Assembly: GCF_007671685.1 (NCBI RefSeq)
Contig: NZ_VCNL01000001.1
Location: 434,001 to 498,000, forward strand
DNA length: 64,000 bases
Origin: Halorubrum salsamenti
GTDB taxonomy: Archaea > Halobacteriota > Halobacteria > Halobacteriales > Haloferacaceae
Reading direction: 5' to 3'
In this document: positions 14,440 through 23,787 of the stretch, one piece after another
Numbering within the stretch: position 1 is the first letter of the stretch
Layout of the letters: each line of letters opens with the position of its first letter
Position numbers and translations under genes: made by a program
Notes under the pieces: model-generated
Seen by the model: the letters and a program-made list of their open reading frames with translations, nothing else
Told to the model about the DNA's origin: nothing
The model's database searches: none

Positions 14440-16404
14440 ATGGATTACGCCGGAGTCGACGGCCGGCGGACGGACGAAAGCGCCGCCGGCGAGGACGACG
14501 ACGTCGTCGAACCGCCCACCGCGTTCAGCGACCGGGCCGTCGCGAGCGACTCGGGGATATACGAGGCCTTCGTCGAGGAGGGGCCGGCGGCGTGGCGCCG
14601 CGCCGCCGACCTGCTCGACTGGGAGCGTCCCTACGAGACGGTGTTGGACGACGGGAACCCGCCCTTCTACGAGTGGTTCCCGGACGGGCGGCTCAACGCC
14701 GCGGCCAACTGCATCGACCGCCACCTCGACGAACGCCGGAACCAGCTCGCGATCCGCTGGTTCGGCAAGCGCGGAGAGCGCCGGTCGTACACCTACCTCG
14801 ACCTCCACCGCGAGGTGAACGCGCTCGCGGCCGGGCTCCGCGATCTGGGGGTCGAGGAGGACGACGTGGTGACGCTGTACCTCCCGATGGTCCCGGAGCT
14901 GCCGATCGCGATGCTGGCCTGTGCTCGGATCGGCGCGCCCCACAACGTCGTCTTCGCGGGGCTGTCCGCGGAGGCGCTCGCGACTCGGATCGACGCCGCA
15001 GACTCGGAGTACCTCGTCACCTGCGACGGCTACTACCGGCGGGAGGACGCGTTCAACCAGAAGTCGAAGGCGGACAACGCCAGGCTTCGGGCCGACGCCG
15101 ACCTGTCGGCGACGGTGGTCGTCGACCGGCTCGGCGACGCGCTCGACGTGCCCCTCGGCGACGACGAACACGAGTACGAGGCGATCGTGGAGGCGCACGA
15201 CGGGGAGACGGTCGAGCCGGTCGCGCGCGACGCCACCGACCTCCTCTTCGTGATGTACACCTCCGGGACGACGGGGCGCCCGAAGGGCGTCGAGCACGCG
15301 ACCGGCGGCTACCTCTCGCACGTCGCGTGGACGACCCGGAACGTGCTCGACGTGCGCCCCGACGACACCTACTGGTGCGCGGCCGACATCGGCTGGATCA
15401 CGGGCCACTCCTACGGCGTGTACGGCCCCCTCTCCGTCGGGACCACGAGCGTCCTCTACGAGGGGTCGCCCGACTACCCCGACCGCGACCGCGTGTGGGA
15501 CCTGATCGAGCGCAACGCCGTCAGCGTCTTCTACACCTCGCCGACCGCGATCCGGTCGTTCATGAAGTGGGGCGCGGAGTACCCCGACGCCCACGACCTG
15601 TCGTCGATCCGCCTGCTGGGAACCGTCGGCGAGTCGATCACCCCGAAGGCGTGGCGCTGGTATCGAGAACACGTCGGCGGCGGCGAGGCGCCGATCGTCG
15701 ACACGTGGTGGCAGACCGAGACGGGCGCCATCTCCCTCGCGACGCTGCCGGGGATCACCCCGATGAAGCCCGGGAAGGTCGGCCCGCCGCTGCCGGGGAT
15801 CGACGCGCGCGTCGTCGACGAGGACGGCGAGCCCGTCGACCCCGGCGAGCCGGGGTACCTCACGATCGCCGCGCCGTGGCCCGGGATGCTTCGCGGGCTC
15901 CGCGAGGGCGACGAGCGGTACCGGCGAGAGTACTGGCTGGAGGGCGAGGACGGCTGGCGGTACCGCACCGGCGACGGCGCCACCGTCGACGAGGACGGCT
16001 ACGTGACGATCCTCGGCCGCGTCGACGACGTGATCAACGTCCGAACCCATCGCTTTAACACCGCGGGGCTGGAGTCGGCCATCGTCGAGGCCGACGGGGT
16101 CACCGAGGCCGCGGTCGTCGGGGACGGCGACGGGCAGATCGTCGCGTACGTGACGACCCGGGGCGACGTCGAACCCGACGGGACCCTCCGCGACGCGATC
16201 GGCGAGCGGCTGGCGCGGGCGGTCGGCGACGTGGCGCGCCCCGATCGGATCGTGTTCACCCCTGACCTCCCGAAAACCCGTTCCGGAAAGATCATGCGCC
16301 GGCTGCTGGAGGACATCGCGCGGGGCAACGAGTTCGGCGACGTGAGCGCTCTCCGCAATCCCGAGGTCGTCGGCGAGATCGAGTCGGCAGTTCGCAAAGA
16401 GTAA
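14440..16404 (+). CDS. Acetyl-CoA synthetase-like protein (paralogue 1, altered A8 motif)
   Basis: An AMP-forming acyl-CoA synthetase, 654 residues, with the Acs-specific N-terminus (PPFYEWFPDGRLNAAANCIDRH), P-loop YTSGTTGRPKG, the acetate-pocket motif VDTWWQTETG and the C-terminal lysine site PKTRSGKIMRR. It is very similar to the second copy at 18976 through the N-terminal domain. The A8 hinge region differs: after R527-V-D-D it reads INVRTHRFNT instead of the canonical INVSGHRLGT kept in paralogue 2, changing the Ser-Gly and Leu-Gly positions at the CoA-facing site. The first half-reaction looks intact; substrate or CoA handling may differ. Followed by two hairpins and a DUF2061 gene. Confidence 0.9.
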   Translation: MDYAGVDGRRTDESAAGEDDDVVEPPTAFSDRAVASDSGIYEAFVEEGPAAWRRAADLLDWERPYETVLDDGNPPFYEWFPDGRLNAAANCIDRHLDERRNQLAIRWFGKRGERRSYTYLDLHREVNALAAGLRDLGVEEDDVVTLYLPMVPELPIAMLACARIGAPHNVVFAGLSAEALATRIDAADSEYLVTCDGYYRREDAFNQKSKADNARLRADADLSATVVVDRLGDALDVPLGDDEHEYEAIVEAHDGETVEPVARDATDLLFVMYTSGTTGRPKGVEHATGGYLSHVAWTTRNVLDVRPDDTYWCAADIGWITGHSYGVYGPLSVGTTSVLYEGSPDYPDRDRVWDLIERNAVSVFYTSPTAIRSFMKWGAEYPDAHDLSSIRLLGTVGESITPKAWRWYREHVGGGEAPIVDTWWQTETGAISLATLPGITPMKPGKVGPPLPGIDARVVDEDGEPVDPGEPGYLTIAAPWPGMLRGLREGDERYRREYWLEGEDGWRYRTGDGATVDEDGYVTILGRVDDVINVRTHRFNTAGLESAIVEADGVTEAAVVGDGDGQIVAYVTTRGDVEPDGTLRDAIGERLARAVGDVARPDRIVFTPDLPKTRSGKIMRRLLEDIARGNEFGDVSALRNPEVVGEIESAVRKE

Positions 16405-16477: not shown

Positions 16478-16714
16478 ATGAGCTCTCTCGTCTCGCGCTC
16501 GGCGCTCCACGCGCGGAAGCGGGCGCTCGCGAAGACCCTCTGCTACCGGGCGCTCATGGTGGCTATCACCGTTCTGGTGGCGTGGGCCGTCGTCGGCGAC
16601 GTCAGCGACGCCGTGAACATCGGACTGGTCGCCAACGTGGTGAAGACGATAACCTACTACAGTTACGAGCGACTGTGGGACCACGTGACGTGGGGCGTCG
16701 CCGAAGCGGCCTGA
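16478..16714 (+). CDS. DUF2061 small membrane protein
   Basis: The 78-residue protein matches the DUF2061 pattern: a basic N-terminus (HARKRALAKTLCYR), a hydrophobic helix (ALMVAITVLVAWAVVG), a second helix (AVNIGLVANVVKTITYYSYE), and the ending YERLWDHVTWG. It should span the membrane twice. The family occurs as stand-alone proteins and fused to sulfate adenylylation enzymes; its role is unknown. It sits between acs1 and the Bat-like regulator on the same strand with its own AT-rich promoter region (16420-16455). Confidence 0.9.
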   Translation: MSSLVSRSALHARKRALAKTLCYRALMVAITVLVAWAVVGDVSDAVNIGLVANVVKTITYYSYERLWDHVTWGVAEAA

Positions 16715-17086
16715 ACCGGTGGGCGAAACGCGAGCGGAACCGAATCGCCACAGGCAGATCGAACCGGCACTGCCGATCGAACCGTCACCGGCCGGTCGGT
16801 TACGGAGAATCGAGGAGAAAGCCTCGCGCTTCAGCGCGGGGATGAATCCGACACTTCCTTTCACACTCCACCGGTCGATGGCACAGCTGGATATTCCACG
16901 CTGACGGCGACAGTCGCGTCGGACCGTTATTTCGGATACAGATGTATACCCGAAATAGATCGTCGGTTGATTCAGTGATAGTCGACCGATAAACGAGATT
17001 GAGAAACCGAACAGCGGTCGAACGCTCGACTAACGGTGTTTCTCAGGGAAAGACTTACTTCGCTTTCTCGTGTGTAAACGAAACGA
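16715..17086. other. Gene-free stretch with IS605-like hairpin and AT-rich promoter region
   Basis: No convincing coding frame. The left half has degenerate repeats of CGATCGAACC/GATCGAACCG type, then the hairpin listed at 16822-16841. The right half (16925-17085) is markedly AT-richer, with several TATA-like stretches (TTATTTCGG, GATAAACGAG, GACTTACTTC), and should contain the promoter and possibly operators of the Bat-like regulator. Confidence 0.6.
16822..16841 (+). mobile_element. Orphan hairpin resembling an IS200/IS605 (TnpB) right end
   Basis: CCTCGCGC-TTCA-GCGCGGGG forms an eight-pair stem (one U.G). With the flanks GAGAAAG before and ATGAATCCGACAC after, it resembles the right end that follows tnpB in haloarchaeal IS200/IS605 elements, which also forms the 3' part of the TnpB guide RNA. 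No tnpB or tnpA frame lies nearby, so this is at most a solo end or PATE-like remnant. Recognised from memory of the motif, not by search. Confidence 0.6.
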
Positions 17087-18877
17087 ATGGTCGAGGGACT
17101 GGACGCAGACGCGTACGAGGCGGTCGTGACCGCGGCGGAGACGTACCGCGCCGCGCTGGTCGTCCGCCTCGGCGGAGAGGCGGGGCTCCGGACCGGTGAG
17201 ATCACGCGTGTCTCCCCGCGACACCTCAGCGAGACGGACGGCGAGGCGGACCTCTCACTCCTCGCCGTCCCGTCGGACAGCGCGGAGGCGGAGGCCGGAA
17301 CGGACGACGACCCTGAAACGGAGACGGCTCTGCGAGACCGAAGCACGATCGACCGCGAGACGGTGATTCCGGCGTCGCTGGCGGCGGAAATGCGGCGGTA
17401 CGCGGAGAGCGCCGACCTTGCCGACTCGGAGCCGTTCGTCGACGTGTCGCCCCGGCGCGTTCAGATGATCGTGAACGAGACCGCGGAGCGCGCGGCGGCG
17501 CGGACCGACGGTCTCGTCGACCCAGACGTGACGCCCCGGGACCTCCGGCGGACCTTCGCGCGGCGGCTCCTCGCCGACCGGGGTGTCGACCCGCACGCCG
17601 TCCGCGAGGCCGGGGGCTGGGAGACGATGGCGACGCTCGACGACTACCTCGGACCGCTCGACGGGGAGGCGATCGCCGAGGCGATCGCCGGCGATCGGGC
17701 CGGTTCGTCTCGCGGACCCGAGGGCGGCTCGGCATCGACTGCGCTCGAAGGGTTCGAGGCGCTCACCGACGGTGACGGCCGTCAGACGCCTCTCGAAACG
17801 GTTCCAGAGGGCGTGGTCGCGTCCGACCGCTGGGCCGAGGCGTGGGTCGTCCGCGGGACGGGGGACCGCGACCGCGTCGAGATCGCGGGCACCGCCGGGA
17901 CCGACCGAGAGGCGCTCATCGATCGCGGCGTCACCGGCGATGGCCCGTGGCGCGACGCGGTCGAGGAGGCGGAACCGGTCGCGACCGAGGGATCGCCGGC
18001 GACCGCGGGCCGGCCGGCGATCGCGGTCCCCCTCCGGTACCGCGACGTAACGCACGGCGCGCTGTGTGTCGTCTCGGGAGAGGATATTCCCGTTTCACCG
18101 GTCGAACGCCGCGAAATAGCGGCCCTCGGACGGTGTCTCGGGTGGGCGGTAACCGCCGGGCGCTGGCGCGACCTGCTTCACTCCGACGCGGTGACTGAAG
18201 TGGAGTTTCACACCGGCGACGAGGGGGCGTTCCTCGCCCGCGCGAGCGCGGCGCTCGGCTGTCGGATCGAACTGGCCTCCACCGTGGCGGTCGACGACGC
18301 CTCCCGCTTCTACCTCTCTGTCGAAGGAACGCGCCCGCAGGCGCTGGCCGACGCGGTCGCCGGCGCGTCCGGGGTCTCGGACCTCCGCGTGATCGAGACC
18401 CGCGAGGACGGCTGTGACGTGTCCGCGCGCGTGGAGGGAGGCTCGGCGGTCCGGACGCTTACCGAACACGGCGCGACCGTCCGCGACGCGACCGCGGAGG
18501 ACGGGCGGGTCCGGGTCGTCGCGGACCTCCCGGAGGGCGCCGACGTCCGCCCCGTCGCCGACGGGTTCCGAGCCGCCTTCGCCGACGCGCGGCTCGCGAG
18601 CAAGGAGTCGGTCCCGCGGTCGCCCCGGAGCGAAGACTCGCTGCGGGAAGGGGTCGCGGACCGGTTCACCGACCGCCAGTGGGCCGCGCTGTCGGCCGCG
18701 TACCACGGCGGGTACTTCGACTGGCCGCGGGGGAGCACCGCCGAGGAGGTCGCCGACGCCATGGGCGTCTCCTCGCCGACGTTCCACAACCACCTCCGGA
18801 AGGCCCAACGCGGGCTGCTCGACGAGCTCTTCGAGGACGGACGGCGGGCTCGACGCCGGGGGGAATCGGCTCCGTAG
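17087..18877 (+). CDS. HTH-10 (bacterio-opsin activator-type) regulator with tyrosine-recombinase-like N-terminus
   Basis: The 596-residue product joins three parts. Residues 10-195 resemble a phage-integrase catalytic domain: AGLRTGEIT (R35), then R151-D-L-R154-R-T-F, W178 in AGGWETMATL and Y187 in DDYLG. This gives the R-[H>R]xxR-W-Y order, with only the box II His replaced by Arg. Residues about 225-380 look like a GAF sensor domain. The end is the Bat/HTH-10 DNA-binding domain (about 535-590: FTDRQWAALSAAYHGGYFDW, then PRGSTAEEVADAMGVSSPTFHNHLRKA). It lies between two acs genes and before the acetate symporter, so control of acetate metabolism is inferred. Whether the recombinase part retains any DNA cleavage or serves only DNA binding is unknown. 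Confidence 0.9.
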   Translation: MVEGLDADAYEAVVTAAETYRAALVVRLGGEAGLRTGEITRVSPRHLSETDGEADLSLLAVPSDSAEAEAGTDDDPETETALRDRSTIDRETVIPASLAAEMRRYAESADLADSEPFVDVSPRRVQMIVNETAERAAARTDGLVDPDVTPRDLRRTFARRLLADRGVDPHAVREAGGWETMATLDDYLGPLDGEAIAEAIAGDRAGSSRGPEGGSASTALEGFEALTDGDGRQTPLETVPEGVVASDRWAEAWVVRGTGDRDRVEIAGTAGTDREALIDRGVTGDGPWRDAVEEAEPVATEGSPATAGRPAIAVPLRYRDVTHGALCVVSGEDIPVSPVERREIAALGRCLGWAVTAGRWRDLLHSDAVTEVEFHTGDEGAFLARASAALGCRIELASTVAVDDASRFYLSVEGTRPQALADAVAGASGVSDLRVIETREDGCDVSARVEGGSAVRTLTEHGATVRDATAEDGRVRVVADLPEGADVRPVADGFRAAFADARLASKESVPRSPRSEDSLREGVADRFTDRQWAALSAAYHGGYFDWPRGSTAEEVADAMGVSSPTFHNHLRKAQRGLLDELFEDGRRARRRGESAP

Positions 18878-18975
18878 CGGCGCGAGCGCTCCGACTCACG
18901 GGGCGGATCTATCACGATTTTTCGTATTTAGCGCCATCGTTTAAGGGGCGAGATCGGTTTGCTACAGAGCGTACC

Positions 18976-20970
18976 ATGACAGAGGGAGACGGTCAACTGG
19001 AAGCGAGATTAGCAGAGCAGGAGGTGTTCGAACCGCCGGAGTCGTTCGTCGATCAGGCGAACGTGTCGGATCCCGGGGTCTACGACGAGTTCGACGAGAA
19101 CTGGCCGGAGTGCTGGGAGACGGCCGCCGATCTGCTCGACTGGGAGACGGACTACGACCAGGTACTCGACGACAGCAACCCTCCCTTCTACGAGTGGTTC
19201 ACGGGCGGCGAGCTGAACGCGTCGGCCAACTGCATCGACCGCCACCTCGACGAGCGCGGCGACGAGGTCGCGATCGAGTGGGTCGGCGAGCCCGTCGACG
19301 AGGACGACCGGTCGTACACCTACGAGGAACTCCACCGCGAGGTGAACGAGTTCGCGGCCGCGCTCCGCGATCGGGGCGTCGAGGAGGACGACGTGGTGAC
19401 GCTGTACATGCCGATGATCCCGGAGCTGCCGATCGCGATGCTGGCGTGCGCCCGGCTCGGCGCGCCCCACAGCGTCGTCTTCGCCGGGTTCTCGGCGGAC
19501 GCGCTCGCGACGCGGATGAACTCCGCGGACTCCGAGTACCTCGTCACCTGCGACGGCTACTACCGGCGCGGCGACCCCCTCGACCACCTCGACAAGGCGA
19601 ACGAGGGGCTTTCGGGCGTCGACCACGAGACGACGACGGTCGTCGTCGACCGGCTCGGCCCGAACGGCGACGACTTCGACCACGACCTCGGCGACGACCA
19701 GATCGACTACGGCGACCTCGTCGCGGACCACGAGGGCGCCGAGGTCGAGCCGGTCACTCGCGACGCCGAGGACATGCTGTTCCTGATGTACACATCGGGG
19801 ACGACCGGGAAGCCGAAGGGGGTGAAACACACCACCGGCGGCTACCTCTCGTGGGTGTCGTGGACCTCGCAGTCCGTCCTCGACATCAAGCCGGATGACA
19901 CGTACTTCTGCTCGGCCGACATCGGCTGGATCACGGGTCACTCCTACATCGTCTACGGGCCGCTCGCGCTCGGAACGACGACGATGATGTACGAGGGGAC
20001 GCCCGATCACCCGGAGCGCGACCGACTCTGGGAGATCGTCGAGGAGCACGACGCGACCCAACTGTACACCGCGCCCACCGCGATCCGCGCGTTCATGAAG
20101 TGGGGCTCGGAGTACCCGGACCGCCACGACCTCTCTTCGCTGCGGCTGCTCGGCACGGTCGGCGAGCCGATCAACCCGCGCGCGTGGAAGTGGTACTACC
20201 AGCACATCGGTGACGAGGAGTGCCCGATCGTCGACACGTGGTGGCAGACCGAGACCGGCGGGATGATGATCACGACGCTGCCCGGGGTGAAAGACATGAA
20301 GCCCGGCGCGGCCGGACCGCCGCTCCCGGGGCTCGACGTGCAGATCCTCGACACGCTCGGCGACGAGGTAGAGCCCGGAAAGGCCGGCTACCTCACGGTA
20401 CAGAAGCCGTGGCCCGGCATGCTCCGGACGCTGTACAAGAACGACGAGCGCTACATCGAGGAGTACTGGGCGGAGTACTCCGACACCGACAGCGACGACC
20501 CAGACGACTGGGTCTACTTCCCGGAGGACGGGGCGAAGATCGACGAGGACGGCTACATCACCGTCCTCGGGCGCGTCGACGACGTTCTCAACGTCTCGGG
20601 CCACCGGCTCGGGACGATGGAGATCGAGTCAGCCATCGTCGGCGTCGAGGGCGTCGCCGAGGCCGCCGTGGTCGGCGGCGACCACGACATCAAAGGCGAG
20701 GCCGTCTACGCGTACGTGACGACCGAAGACGGGTACGAGGGCAACGACGAGCTCCGCGACGCGATCGTCGCGGGCGTCGAGGACGCTATCGGCCCGATCG
20801 CCCGACCGGAACAGGTCGTGTTCACGCCCGACCTGCCGAAGACCCGGTCCGGGAAGATCATGCGCCGCCTGCTCGAGAACATCGCCGACGGCAAGGAGCT
20901 GGGTAACACCAGCACGCTCCGCAACCCGGAGATCGTCGAAGAGATCCAGCAGAAAGCGAAGGACGAGTAG
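18976..20970 (+). CDS. acs: Acetyl-CoA synthetase (paralogue 2, canonical)
   Basis: Activates acetate to acetyl-CoA with ATP via acetyl-AMP. The 664-residue protein has YTSGTTGKPKGVKH, WITGHSYIVYGPL, VDTWWQTETGGMM (acetate-pocket Trp), the hinge RVDDVLNVSGHRLGT starting at R533, and the regulatory lysine motif PKTRSGKIMRRLL. All key motifs are canonical, unlike paralogue 1. ATG 18976 is chosen because the longer in-frame start would run into the preceding gene and because MTEGDGQLEARLAEQEVFEPP resembles haloarchaeal Acs starts. A TATA-like GTTTAAGG lies about 36 bases upstream. The symporter operon follows, consistent with acetate uptake and use. Confidence 0.96.
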   Translation: MTEGDGQLEARLAEQEVFEPPESFVDQANVSDPGVYDEFDENWPECWETAADLLDWETDYDQVLDDSNPPFYEWFTGGELNASANCIDRHLDERGDEVAIEWVGEPVDEDDRSYTYEELHREVNEFAAALRDRGVEEDDVVTLYMPMIPELPIAMLACARLGAPHSVVFAGFSADALATRMNSADSEYLVTCDGYYRRGDPLDHLDKANEGLSGVDHETTTVVVDRLGPNGDDFDHDLGDDQIDYGDLVADHEGAEVEPVTRDAEDMLFLMYTSGTTGKPKGVKHTTGGYLSWVSWTSQSVLDIKPDDTYFCSADIGWITGHSYIVYGPLALGTTTMMYEGTPDHPERDRLWEIVEEHDATQLYTAPTAIRAFMKWGSEYPDRHDLSSLRLLGTVGEPINPRAWKWYYQHIGDEECPIVDTWWQTETGGMMITTLPGVKDMKPGAAGPPLPGLDVQILDTLGDEVEPGKAGYLTVQKPWPGMLRTLYKNDERYIEEYWAEYSDTDSDDPDDWVYFPEDGAKIDEDGYITVLGRVDDVLNVSGHRLGTMEIESAIVGVEGVAEAAVVGGDHDIKGEAVYAYVTTEDGYEGNDELRDAIVAGVEDAIGPIARPEQVVFTPDLPKTRSGKIMRRLLENIADGKELGNTSTLRNPEIVEEIQQKAKDE

Positions 20971-21083: not shown

Positions 21084-21566
21084 ATGACAGACAATAGCTC
21101 ACGGAATTCGGACGACGCGGCGACCGATGGGGGCCGCGCAGCGAACGACGCGGCGACCGATGGGGGCCGCGCAGCGGACGACGCGGCCACCGACGGCGGC
21201 GTCGCCACGGGCGCGGCACAGACGCACAACGACACCGACTACCTCGGAGCGGAGGTGAACATCCTGAATCCGAGCACGCCGTACATGCGCGATCACCTGC
21301 GGATCGTCTGGTCGGGGTTCGCCATCTGGGTCCTCGCGGTGTGGGGACCGGTGACCCTGACGCGGCTCGCACCGGGCCCGATGACGAGCCAGATGCCGAT
21401 CCTTCAGTTCCCGCTCCACTACTTCCTCGTCGCGTTCGGCGCGCCGACCAGCGCGCTAATCTTAGCGTTCTGGTACTCGCGCAAGCGGGACGCACTCGAC
21501 GAGAAGTACGGTATCGATCACGGCACCGCTGACGTCGCAGCGACCGACGGAGGGGCAGACGAATGA
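21084..21566 (+). CDS. DUF4212 symporter small subunit
   Basis: Partner subunit of the VC_2705-type sodium/substrate symporter. The core (about residues 60-145) has two membrane helices (IVWSGFAIWVLAVWGPVTL and LHYFLVAFGAPTSALILAFW) and ends with YSRKRDALDEKYGID, all typical of DUF4212. Unusually, residues 10-42 are three 11-residue repeats ([33 protein letters not shown]), and the C-terminus ends in another AATDGG. The same peptide repeat occurs at the C-terminus of its partner and of GlpA. The stop overlaps the ATG of the large subunit (ATGA), so translation is coupled. Confidence 0.93.
   Translation: MTDNSSRNSDDAATDGGRAANDAATDGGRAADDAATDGGVATGAAQTHNDTDYLGAEVNILNPSTPYMRDHLRIVWSGFAIWVLAVWGPVTLTRLAPGPMTSQMPILQFPLHYFLVAFGAPTSALILAFWYSRKRDALDEKYGIDHGTADVAATDGGADE
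21111..21209 (+). repeat. 33-base TDGG-coding repeat, three units
   Basis: Units begin at 21111, 21144 and 21177. The first two differ at the first base only; the third keeps GACGACGCGG and diverges afterwards. The 33-base period and the reading frame match the repeats at 23231-23296 and 48617-48736. Confidence 0.9.
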
Positions 21567-23326
21567 CGGGGAGTTCGATCCTCCTGCAGAGCGACCTCCT
21601 TCCGGAGGCGCTCGACATCTCGTTCAAGCTGGCGCCGTCGATCCTCGTGATCGCGATGTTGGGGCTGTTCCTCACGATCGGCTTCGTCTTCCGCGTCGCC
21701 GACACCGAGAACATGTGGGTCGCCGGTCGGTCCATCGGGAACGTCGAGAACGGGATGGCGATCGGGGCGAACTGGATGTCCGCCGCCTCGTACCTCGGCA
21801 TGGCGGCGTCCATCGCGCTCGCGGGGTTCTACGGGCTCGTGTACGTCGTCGGCTGGACGACGGGGTACTTCATCCTGCTCATCTTCCTCGCCGCGCAGCT
21901 GCGCCGGTTCGGGAAGTACACGGCGCCGGACTTCGTCGGCGACCGATTCAACTCCGACACCGCGCGCGCAATCGCGGCAGTGACGACGTTCCTCATCGGC
22001 TTCGTCTACGCCATCGGGCAGGCGAAGGGGATGGCGCTCGTCGGCCTGTACATCTTCGGTGATTACGGGGGTCTCATCCCCGGTCTCGACGGGTACCAGG
22101 TGATGGTCGTCGCCATGATGGTCGTCACCGTCGGCTACCTGACGCTGTCCGGGATGCTGGGCGCCACGAAGAACCAGGCGGTCCAGTACGTCATTCTCAT
22201 CCTCGCGTTCGTCGTCGGGCTGTTCGTCGTCGGCTACACGAACGGCTACTCCACGGTGTTGCCGCAGCTCGAGTACGGTGCGCTGATCAGTCAGCTCGGG
22301 ACCGAGTTCTCCGAACCGTTCGCGTCCTCGAGCTACTACCTCTGGGTCGCCACGACGTTCTCGCTGATCGTCGGCACCTGCGGACTGCCGCACGTGCTCG
22401 TCCGGTTCTACACTGTGGAAAGCGAACGGACGGCCCGCTGGTCGACGGTCTGGGGGCTGTTCTTCATCTGTATCCTCTACTGGAGCGCTCCGGCGTTCGC
22501 GGCGTTCGGGACCGACCTCTACACGCAGAACGTCGGTGCGACGTACGGCGATCCCGGGATGACGGGCGCGGCCAGCGAGGTCATCGTCGTGCTGGCGGCG
22601 CAGCTGTCCGGGCTCCCGGACTGGTTCGTCGGCATCGTCGCGGCGGGCGGTATCGCCGCGGCCATCGCGACCGTCGCCGGGCTGTTCATCGCCGGTTCGT
22701 CGGCGATCAGCCACGACATCTACACGAACATCATCAACGAGGACGCGACGCAGCGCCAGCAGATCCTCGTCGGCCGCCTCTCGATCGTCGCGCTGGGCGC
22801 GCTGACCACGCTGGCCGCGCTCAATCCCGCGTCGTCGATCGCGGCGCTCGTGGGATACGCGTTCTCGCTCGCCGGCTCCGTGCTGTTCCCGATGTTCTTC
22901 CTCGGCATGTGGTGGGAGAACGCCAACCGGCAGGGAGCGCTCGCCGGCATGACGACCGGACTGACCCTCTGGTCTATCCCGATGATCAACCAGATCGTCC
23001 CGACGTACATCGGCTCGCTCGAGGCGCCGCTGTCGGCGGGGCTGGCCCAGTGGATGCCCGCCATCGGCTCGGCGCTCATCACGCTCCCGATCGTGTTCGT
23101 CGTCACCATCGCCGTCTCGATGGCGACCGACGAGCCGTCGCTCGAAACGAAGCGGATCGTCCGGCAGTGTCACAGCCCCGAACCGATGGGGCAACAGGAG
23201 ACCGCCGAGGACGTCGTCGCCGACGGCGGCGAGGACGTTGCGACTGACGGTGGCCGCGCAGTTGACGACGCGGGCGCCGACGGTGGCCGCGCAGTTGACG
23301 ACGACGAAACCACGGAGGAGAGATAA
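21563..23326 (+). CDS. Sodium:solute symporter, acetate permease-like (VC_2705 family)
   Basis: A 587-residue SSS-family transporter with about 13 membrane helices, predicted to import acetate or a similar short monocarboxylate with sodium. Typical features include a first helix (ISFKLAPSILVIAMLGLFLTIGF), the WVAGRSIGNVENGMAIGANWMSAASYLGM segment of ActP-like members, GMALVGLYIFGDYGG, and LPHVLVRFYTVES. The cytoplasmic tail ends with two 11-residue repeats (EDVATDGGRAV, DDAGADGGRAV; about residues 557-578). It is in one operon with DUF4212 upstream (4-base overlap) and uspA downstream (stop and ATG overlapping). Adjacent acs genes support acetate as substrate (inference). Confidence 0.92.
   Translation: MTGSSILLQSDLLPEALDISFKLAPSILVIAMLGLFLTIGFVFRVADTENMWVAGRSIGNVENGMAIGANWMSAASYLGMAASIALAGFYGLVYVVGWTTGYFILLIFLAAQLRRFGKYTAPDFVGDRFNSDTARAIAAVTTFLIGFVYAIGQAKGMALVGLYIFGDYGGLIPGLDGYQVMVVAMMVVTVGYLTLSGMLGATKNQAVQYVILILAFVVGLFVVGYTNGYSTVLPQLEYGALISQLGTEFSEPFASSSYYLWVATTFSLIVGTCGLPHVLVRFYTVESERTARWSTVWGLFFICILYWSAPAFAAFGTDLYTQNVGATYGDPGMTGAASEVIVVLAAQLSGLPDWFVGIVAAGGIAAAIATVAGLFIAGSSAISHDIYTNIINEDATQRQQILVGRLSIVALGALTTLAALNPASSIAALVGYAFSLAGSVLFPMFFLGMWWENANRQGALAGMTTGLTLWSIPMINQIVPTYIGSLEAPLSAGLAQWMPAIGSALITLPIVFVVTIAVSMATDEPSLETKRIVRQCHSPEPMGQQETAEDVVADGGEDVATDGGRAVDDAGADGGRAVDDDETTEER
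23231..23296 (+). repeat. 33-base TDGG-coding repeat, two units
   Basis: Units at 23231-23263 and 23264-23296 share GACGGTGGCCGCGCAGTT and encode EDVATDGGRAV and DDAGADGGRAV at the symporter C-terminus. Confidence 0.88.
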
Positions 23327-23787
23327 TGTACGAACGAATCCTCGTTCCCACGGACGGAAGCGACGTCGCAGAGGCCGCCGTCGACCACGCGCTCGACCTC
23401 GCGGAGAAGTACGACGCCGAGGTCCACGCGCTGTACGTGGTCGATATCGACTCCGTGAACTTCAGTCTCGGGACCGAACAGGTCGACCGGCTCAAACAGG
23501 GCCGGTTCGACGAGATGGGAGAGCTGAAAGAGCGGGCGGACGAGGCGACCGGCGTGGTCGCCGAACGCGGAGCCGAACGCGGCGTTGATATCGTCGAACA
23601 CGTCTCGGGCGGTCGGCCGCACAAAGTGATCGGCGACTACGCCGAGAACCACGATATCGACCTCATCGTGATGGGGAGCCACGGGCGCGCGGGCGTCCGG
23701 CGAGCGCTGCTCGGGAGCGTCACCGAGCGGACGCTGCGTTCGACACACGTCCCCGTCCTCGTCGTCGACTACCTCGACGAGGACTGA
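23326..23787 (+). CDS. Universal stress protein (UspA family)
   Basis: A 153-residue single-domain Usp. It starts MYERILVPTDGSDVAEAA and ends with GSHGRAGVRRALLGSVTERTLR and HVPVLVVD, i.e. the G-2x-G-9x-G(S/T) ATP-binding pattern. Its ATG overlaps the symporter stop (TAATG), so it is co-translated with the transporter. Usp proteins encoded directly after transporters are common in archaea and are thought to modulate them; that role here is inference. Confidence 0.95.
   Translation: MYERILVPTDGSDVAEAAVDHALDLAEKYDAEVHALYVVDIDSVNFSLGTEQVDRLKQGRFDEMGELKERADEATGVVAERGAERGVDIVEHVSGGRPHKVIGDYAENHDIDLIVMGSHGRAGVRRALLGSVTERTLRSTHVPVLVVDYLDED

Follow-up and report, generated by a model that had tools for sequence, protein, structure and literature searches.

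The stretch of DNA analysed here (64 kb, called the window below) comes from the genus Halorubrum and carries, on its plus strand, a set of genes related to acetate use. An AMP-forming acetyl-CoA synthetase paralogue (acsA, 14440-16404; assigned from its ACAS_N and AMP-binding Pfam domains and from synteny) is followed by the gene of a regulator (17087-18877; ORF confirmed, 596 amino acids) that joins an integrase-like domain to GAF, BAT, and HTH_10 domains, as judged from the ORF and Pfam. Next comes a putative acetate operon, in which acsB (18976-20970; assigned from Pfam and its leader) encodes an acetyl-CoA synthetase and is gene 1; a DUF4212 protein (21084-21566; Pfam), a sodium:solute (acetate) symporter (21563-23326; Pfam, and the ActP orthologue cluster of PMC7746861), and a universal stress protein (Usp; 23326-23787; Pfam and synteny), the final gene, follow. 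The Pfam matches of the neighbors bear out the description in an earlier note on this DNA, which had placed the regulator between two acs paralogues and ahead of a symporter. An ORF for a DUF2061 membrane protein (78 amino acids, 16478-16714) lies between acsA and the regulator gene, and DUF2061-related sequence was seen at the matching position in several other Halorubrum species.

The N-terminal domain of the regulator (residues 5-188; 17099-17650, plus strand) matched the Pfam family Phage_integrase (PF00589) with 31.4 bits against a cutoff of 27.1, and the NCBIfam model of archaeal XerA matched residues 82-188, far under its own cutoff. Tyrosine recombinases usually, though not universally, also have a SAM-like core-binding domain; Pfam found none at the N terminus of the regulator, where the integrase match begins at residue 5. 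A GAF-like sensor domain (GAF_2, residues 247-348; 17825-18130, plus strand) scored under the Pfam cutoff, while the BAT domain (residues 367-520; 18185-18646, plus strand; 136.5 bits) and the HTH_10 DNA-binding domain (residues 527-578; 18665-18820, plus strand; 69.6 bits) scored far over theirs. BAT followed by a C-terminal HTH_10 is the arrangement that defines bacterio-opsin-activator-like regulators, and HTH_10 is the best-conserved part of the protein (97-94% identity). Some fused relatives from other families carry a PAS domain besides GAF. The fusion of an integrase-like domain to GAF and HTH-10 modules described earlier is therefore upheld by Pfam, with GAF_2 under the cutoff. It is not a chance event, because almost every Halorubrum genome searched has a full-length orthologue (54 to 87% identity) and the profile of the integrase domain has matches in 217 of 293 genomes from the order. 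Several genomes contain more than one match to that domain. In L086 (Halorubrum kocurii), L136, and L128, the regulator ORF is either broken into separate integrase and GAF/BAT/HTH portions or truncated by a contig end.

An AlphaFold2 model of residues 1-212, built with 29 Halorubrum sequences, had a mean pLDDT of 73.8 and was weaker past residue 140, with the C-terminal third of the integrase-like domain modelled at low confidence (pLDDT 50-69). The top Foldseek matches of this model were to Cre (E value 0.0096, probability 0.95-0.97), so that Foldseek alone gave no match with an E value below 0.001. In VIA-align, the top 37 entries all had the recombinase/topoisomerase IB fold (Cre, XerH, XerA, XerD, integron or phage integrases, topoisomerase IB, and MrpR), with Z scores from 7.2 down to 5.3, and clearly unrelated structures started at Z 3.0; the best Z of only 7.2 lies in the range below 8 that is weak when taken alone and may reflect a common arrangement. 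The structural matches agree with the sequence profile and with the order in which conserved residues occur, and we therefore conclude that the N-terminal domain is predicted to have a tyrosine-recombinase fold. The integrase-like fold that the earlier note anticipated for residues 1-200 was thus recovered in the model, through matches to Cre, Xer, and topoisomerase IB proteins.

Five residues of this domain, R35, R151, R154, W178, and Y187, align to the catalytic columns of integrases (R173, H289, R292, W315, and Y324 in Cre). The catalytic set had been read as intact except for the box II His; R35, R154, W178, and Y187 do stand in catalytic columns, but the catalytic Lys is missing as well. 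We compared 94 fused homologues, 41 from Halorubrum and 53 loci from other genera. The conservation expected of the four residues held for R154 (94/94), W178 (91/94), and R35 (87/94) but not for Tyr187, which is retained in 69, gives way to F, H, L, D, S, or A in the other 25, and changed state 11 times or more on the tree, including 3 changes within Halorubrum. R90 is present in all 94, and R123 and R124 are near-invariant. The box II His survives in 3 of the 94, and no conserved beta-hairpin catalytic Lys was found across the fused homologues, which have a variable linker (residues ~63-87) instead; the complete R-K-H-R-(H/W)-Y set occurs in none of them. The stand-alone haloarchaeal sister integrases of about 200 amino acids have the complete set of six (R, K, H, R, W, and Y) in 12 of 12 cases, and on the tree a single branch with full support separates them from the fused proteins. 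These comparisons indicate that the fused family has most likely lost catalysis and is no longer an enzyme. Members of the stand-alone family, which is without a core-binding domain, are found at L127:4726-5379 and L129-L140 (G000:C1:784821-785327 in the window's genome), L127 being an example from the window's genome.

Degenerate catalytic residues would also be expected if a former integrase had been fused by chance and were now decaying. We consider this very improbable: the domain is retained in the islands examined, with R154, R90, and W178 kept as above, and its core is under purifying selection (pN/pS of 0.25-0.41), about as strong as that on GAF (0.31-0.48), which argues against decay. 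The corresponding values are 0.10-0.31 for BAT and 0.13 for HTH_10; the hairpin linker at the former Lys site is nearly neutral (0.75-1.21).

The association of the regulator with acetate genes extends beyond Halorubrum. The order acs, regulator, acs, DUF4212, symporter, Usp is found in Halorubrum and at eight loci of other families, one of which lacks the second acs match, and the island is present also in Haloferax, Haladaptatus, Halococcus, and Halocatena plasmids, with the Usp gene missing in all but Haloferax. An acs gene adjoins the regulator in every one of 39 more fused loci from the order, where the genes downstream were often, though not always, in view or detected. Altogether, 51 of 51 non-Halorubrum fused loci examined adjoin acs genes, most with the whole island, so the pairing of acs and regulator is retained class-wide. 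In Haloferax volcanii, the operon acs7-HVO_A0155-ssf-uspA28, which has the same genes in the same order as the putative operon of the window, is described as a 4.6-kb transcript seen on acetate only (PMC7746861); a term search of that paper found no regulator named for it. The fused protein of Haloferax alexandrinus is encoded directly ahead of the acs gene of an acs7-type operon, and the H. volcanii orthologue of the regulator is for this reason expected, from gene position, to be HVO_A0157, on which our literature search found no paper.

Two kinds of candidate regulatory site were found in the island. The first is an element upstream of the acsB operon, TCACGATTTTTCGTATTTAGCG (18912-18933, plus strand), which lies 8 nt upstream of a TATA box (TATA-like TTTAAG, 18940-18945, plus strand; TTTATAT in most relatives). 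It is almost invariant in about 42 Halorubrum leaders amid otherwise unconserved DNA, and its core is found in other families at a fixed spacing from TATA. A weight matrix trained on other genera only (consensus TTtG.AtA.TTAG - spacer - TTAt) recovered the same site in 42 of 42 Halorubrum leaders with a median of 19.6 bits, against 11.1 bits for the best of 840 shuffles. Pattern searches gave a single occurrence in the genome, and searches ahead of acsA and of the regulator gene did not find the motif. A position directly upstream of TATA fits an archaeal activator site. Bat, the HTH_10 bacterio-opsin activator of Halobacterium, has a PAS/GAF sensor, a C-terminal HTH, and an activator site upstream of the promoter, and controls bop and related genes; we take the position of the acsB element to be that of the Bat site in the bop promoter. 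The regulator resembles Bat in combining a sensor with a C-terminal HTH, whereas Bat is without an integrase-like domain and does not act on acetate genes. Bat and its upstream activator sequence are mentioned in PMC3184054. The leader between element and gene differs among species: in the window (18934-18975) and in L059, L064, and L086, four Halorubrum species in all, it reads GTTTAAGGGGCGAGATCGGTTTGCTACAGAGCGTACC or is one base off, while other Halorubrum species have a leader beginning GTTTATAT in its place, and the former is perhaps a transferred promoter allele. Three distant acs islands (L170, L174, and L176) keep the repeat pair described below with a weak or absent acsB element and perhaps serve another short-chain acid.

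The second kind of site is a pair of 26-bp inverted repeats flanking the regulator's own promoter, neither assigned to a strand. The distal repeat, TTTCGGATACAGATGTATACCCGAAA (operator candidate 1, 16930-16955), is an exact copy of TTTCG-N16-CGAAA, a pattern found class-wide; the proximal repeat, CTTCGCTTTCTCGTGTGTAAACGAAA (operator candidate 2, 17058-17083), has one mismatch to this consensus and ends 3 bp before the start codon. They are 128 bp apart, or 12.2 turns, and are the only matches with at most one mismatch in the 64-kb window. The proximal repeat stands at -31/-32 in 39 of 40 Halorubrum and at -28 to -69 in other genera, and the distal one at about -140 to -180 in Halorubrum. Exact TTTCG-N16-CGAAA occurs 59 times in the 40 Halorubrum upstream regions, with zero copies at most neighboring spacers, and 51 upstream regions of other genera hold 30 exact N16 copies and 16 at N15; shuffles led us to expect 0.1 N16 copies per group. 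Among all 5-mer inverted repeats with spacers of 6 to 24, TTTCG-N16 ranks first in both groups independently. The half-sites extend outward and inward, roughly as ATTYGTTTCGKATTT, giving arms of about 13-15 bp, which match a recombinase arm in size.

Both repeats were detected in 67 of 91 upstream regions (39/40 in Halorubrum and 28/51 elsewhere), the second being undetected in the other 24. The distances between them cluster at 85-87, 95-98, 105-110, 115-118, and 127-130 bp, with further clusters at 135-141, 148-150, 171, and 212 bp, and the best-fitting period is 10.5 bp, the helical repeat (R 0.67 over 32 distinct values, Rayleigh p 5e-7; p 7e-4 for Halorubrum and 1e-4 for the other genera; jitter control on the whole set, p 5e-5). 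Proteins on the two repeats would therefore share one face of the helix, as a loop requires. It is conceivable that these repeats serve another transcription factor and that the fused protein regulates the acsB operon only. We judge this unlikely, because the pair is confined to the regulator promoter: in an exact scan of 12 genomes, with 1 to 7 repeat matches each, close-set matches lay solely at the regulator gene. The repeat also follows that gene class-wide, and the N15/N16 geometry follows the regulator tree (3 changes versus 15.8 when shuffled), a pattern that could reflect shared species history. We infer that it is this regulator that would bind both the acsB element and the repeats.

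The presence of two recombinase-like inverted repeats ahead of a gene with a Pfam integrase match, whose copy in the window has R35, R154, W178, and Y187, might point to an active recombinase that cleaves or inverts a nearby site, at its own promoter or around the acs genes, and so switches the acetate genes, as the earlier note had speculated. We find such a role scarcely credible, and that part of the note is not sustained. The Lys and His are absent and the Tyr has been lost repeatedly. The repeat pair persists in 19 of 22 loci without Tyr187 and in 6 of 7 without R35, which argues that the repeats are not kept for catalysis. No inverted gene order was seen in any of the ~90 loci compared. 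As a candidate invertible element we considered the inverted repeats of the 14.3-21.7 kb region and rejected it; the 25 longest are merely imperfect GC-rich coding matches, and no recombination-type pair surrounds the acs genes in that region.

A different possibility is that the recombinase-like domain stays off the DNA, as a scaffold for dimerization or signal binding, while HTH_10 alone reads both the repeats and the acsB element. The superior conservation of HTH_10 and the Bat-like placing of the acsB element would suit such a division of labor. R35, R154, and the near-invariant R90, R123, and R124 are conserved as for a DNA-binding surface, however, and the equivalents of R35 and R154 in active relatives grip the scissile phosphate. 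Moreover, in the genomes scanned the TTTCG pair is found only at this gene despite other BAT/HTH_10 proteins in the genome. For these reasons, we regard a domain held off the DNA as somewhat unlikely. DNA binding through two modules, which had been proposed for the protein, remains in keeping with an integrase-like fold and HTH_10 in one acetate-island regulator.

The reading that we favor, and hold to be probable on balance, is that the protein is a dedicated, locally encoded regulator of the acetate island in which a dead recombinase domain has been retained for DNA binding and assembly. The assignment of domains to sites, the sign of regulation, the looping, and the signal are what we infer from the arrangement as follows. 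GAF, with PAS in some relatives, probably senses a signal that gates the regulator, BAT would be the transmission domain, and HTH_10 would read promoters, probably the acsB element. When acetate is present, the regulator would activate acsB-DUF4212-symporter-Usp from the element just upstream of TATA. The recombinase domain is probably a looping module; its fold suits this role, since recombinases occupy inverted repeats as dimers and bring two such sites together. Dimers on both phased 26-bp repeats may meet in a small DNA loop, in a manner resembling a recombinase synapse without cutting, and the loop at its own promoter may limit the regulator's expression. The phased, recombinase-like sites suggest a recombinase that has been disarmed and now switches genes by folding DNA. 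A class-wide frozen synapse, in which dead-recombinase dimers bridge the two promoter-flanking repeats into a phased loop and thereby reuse synaptic geometry, is possible, and we advance it tentatively.

The fusion itself has already been catalogued. Family fam30-04, listed in 2021 as an archaeal tyrosine recombinase family, is described there as Phage_integrase, BAT, and HTH_10, with GAF_2 in some members (Badel et al. 2021, PMC8371274). The regulator has the identical domain set, its fit being judged by the family description; the lost catalytic set, acetate synteny, and cis elements reported here go beyond that listing, in which a term search found nothing about loss of catalysis, acetate genes, or operators. 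MrpR, the master repressor of the SPbeta prophage, also has the recombinase fold without recombinase function (PMC10516654; PDB 8A0A). It shares degenerate catalytic residues with the regulator and is among its structural matches (Z 5.6), but it differs in standing alone as a phage repressor and in having a core-binding as well as a catalytic domain; the regulator has only the catalytic domain, joined to GAF-BAT-HTH_10 and encoded in a metabolic island of cellular archaea. Cre, XerA, XerH, and topoisomerase IB are likewise similar in the fold of the N-terminal domain; unlike them, the regulator is missing Lys and His, has a dispensable Tyr, and has no core-binding domain. In relation to the H. 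volcanii operon, what differs from the account in PMC7746861 is our proposal that the adjoining fused protein is its regulator. Lost catalysis in this archaeal family, the class-wide acetate link, the acsB element, and the phased operators thus appear to be new, no earlier report of these four points having been found in a search drawn mostly from papers available without subscription.

Our combined results suggest that the members of a listed archaeal tyrosine recombinase family are most likely dedicated acetate regulators, not recombinases, and that the fused protein is the probable missing regulator of a known haloarchaeal acetate operon. The family would thereby offer a class-wide case, besides the phage protein MrpR, of a recombinase fold turned regulator. 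With exact candidate operators and a helical-phase signature, looping by a dead recombinase can be tested directly in the genetically tractable Haloferax volcanii.
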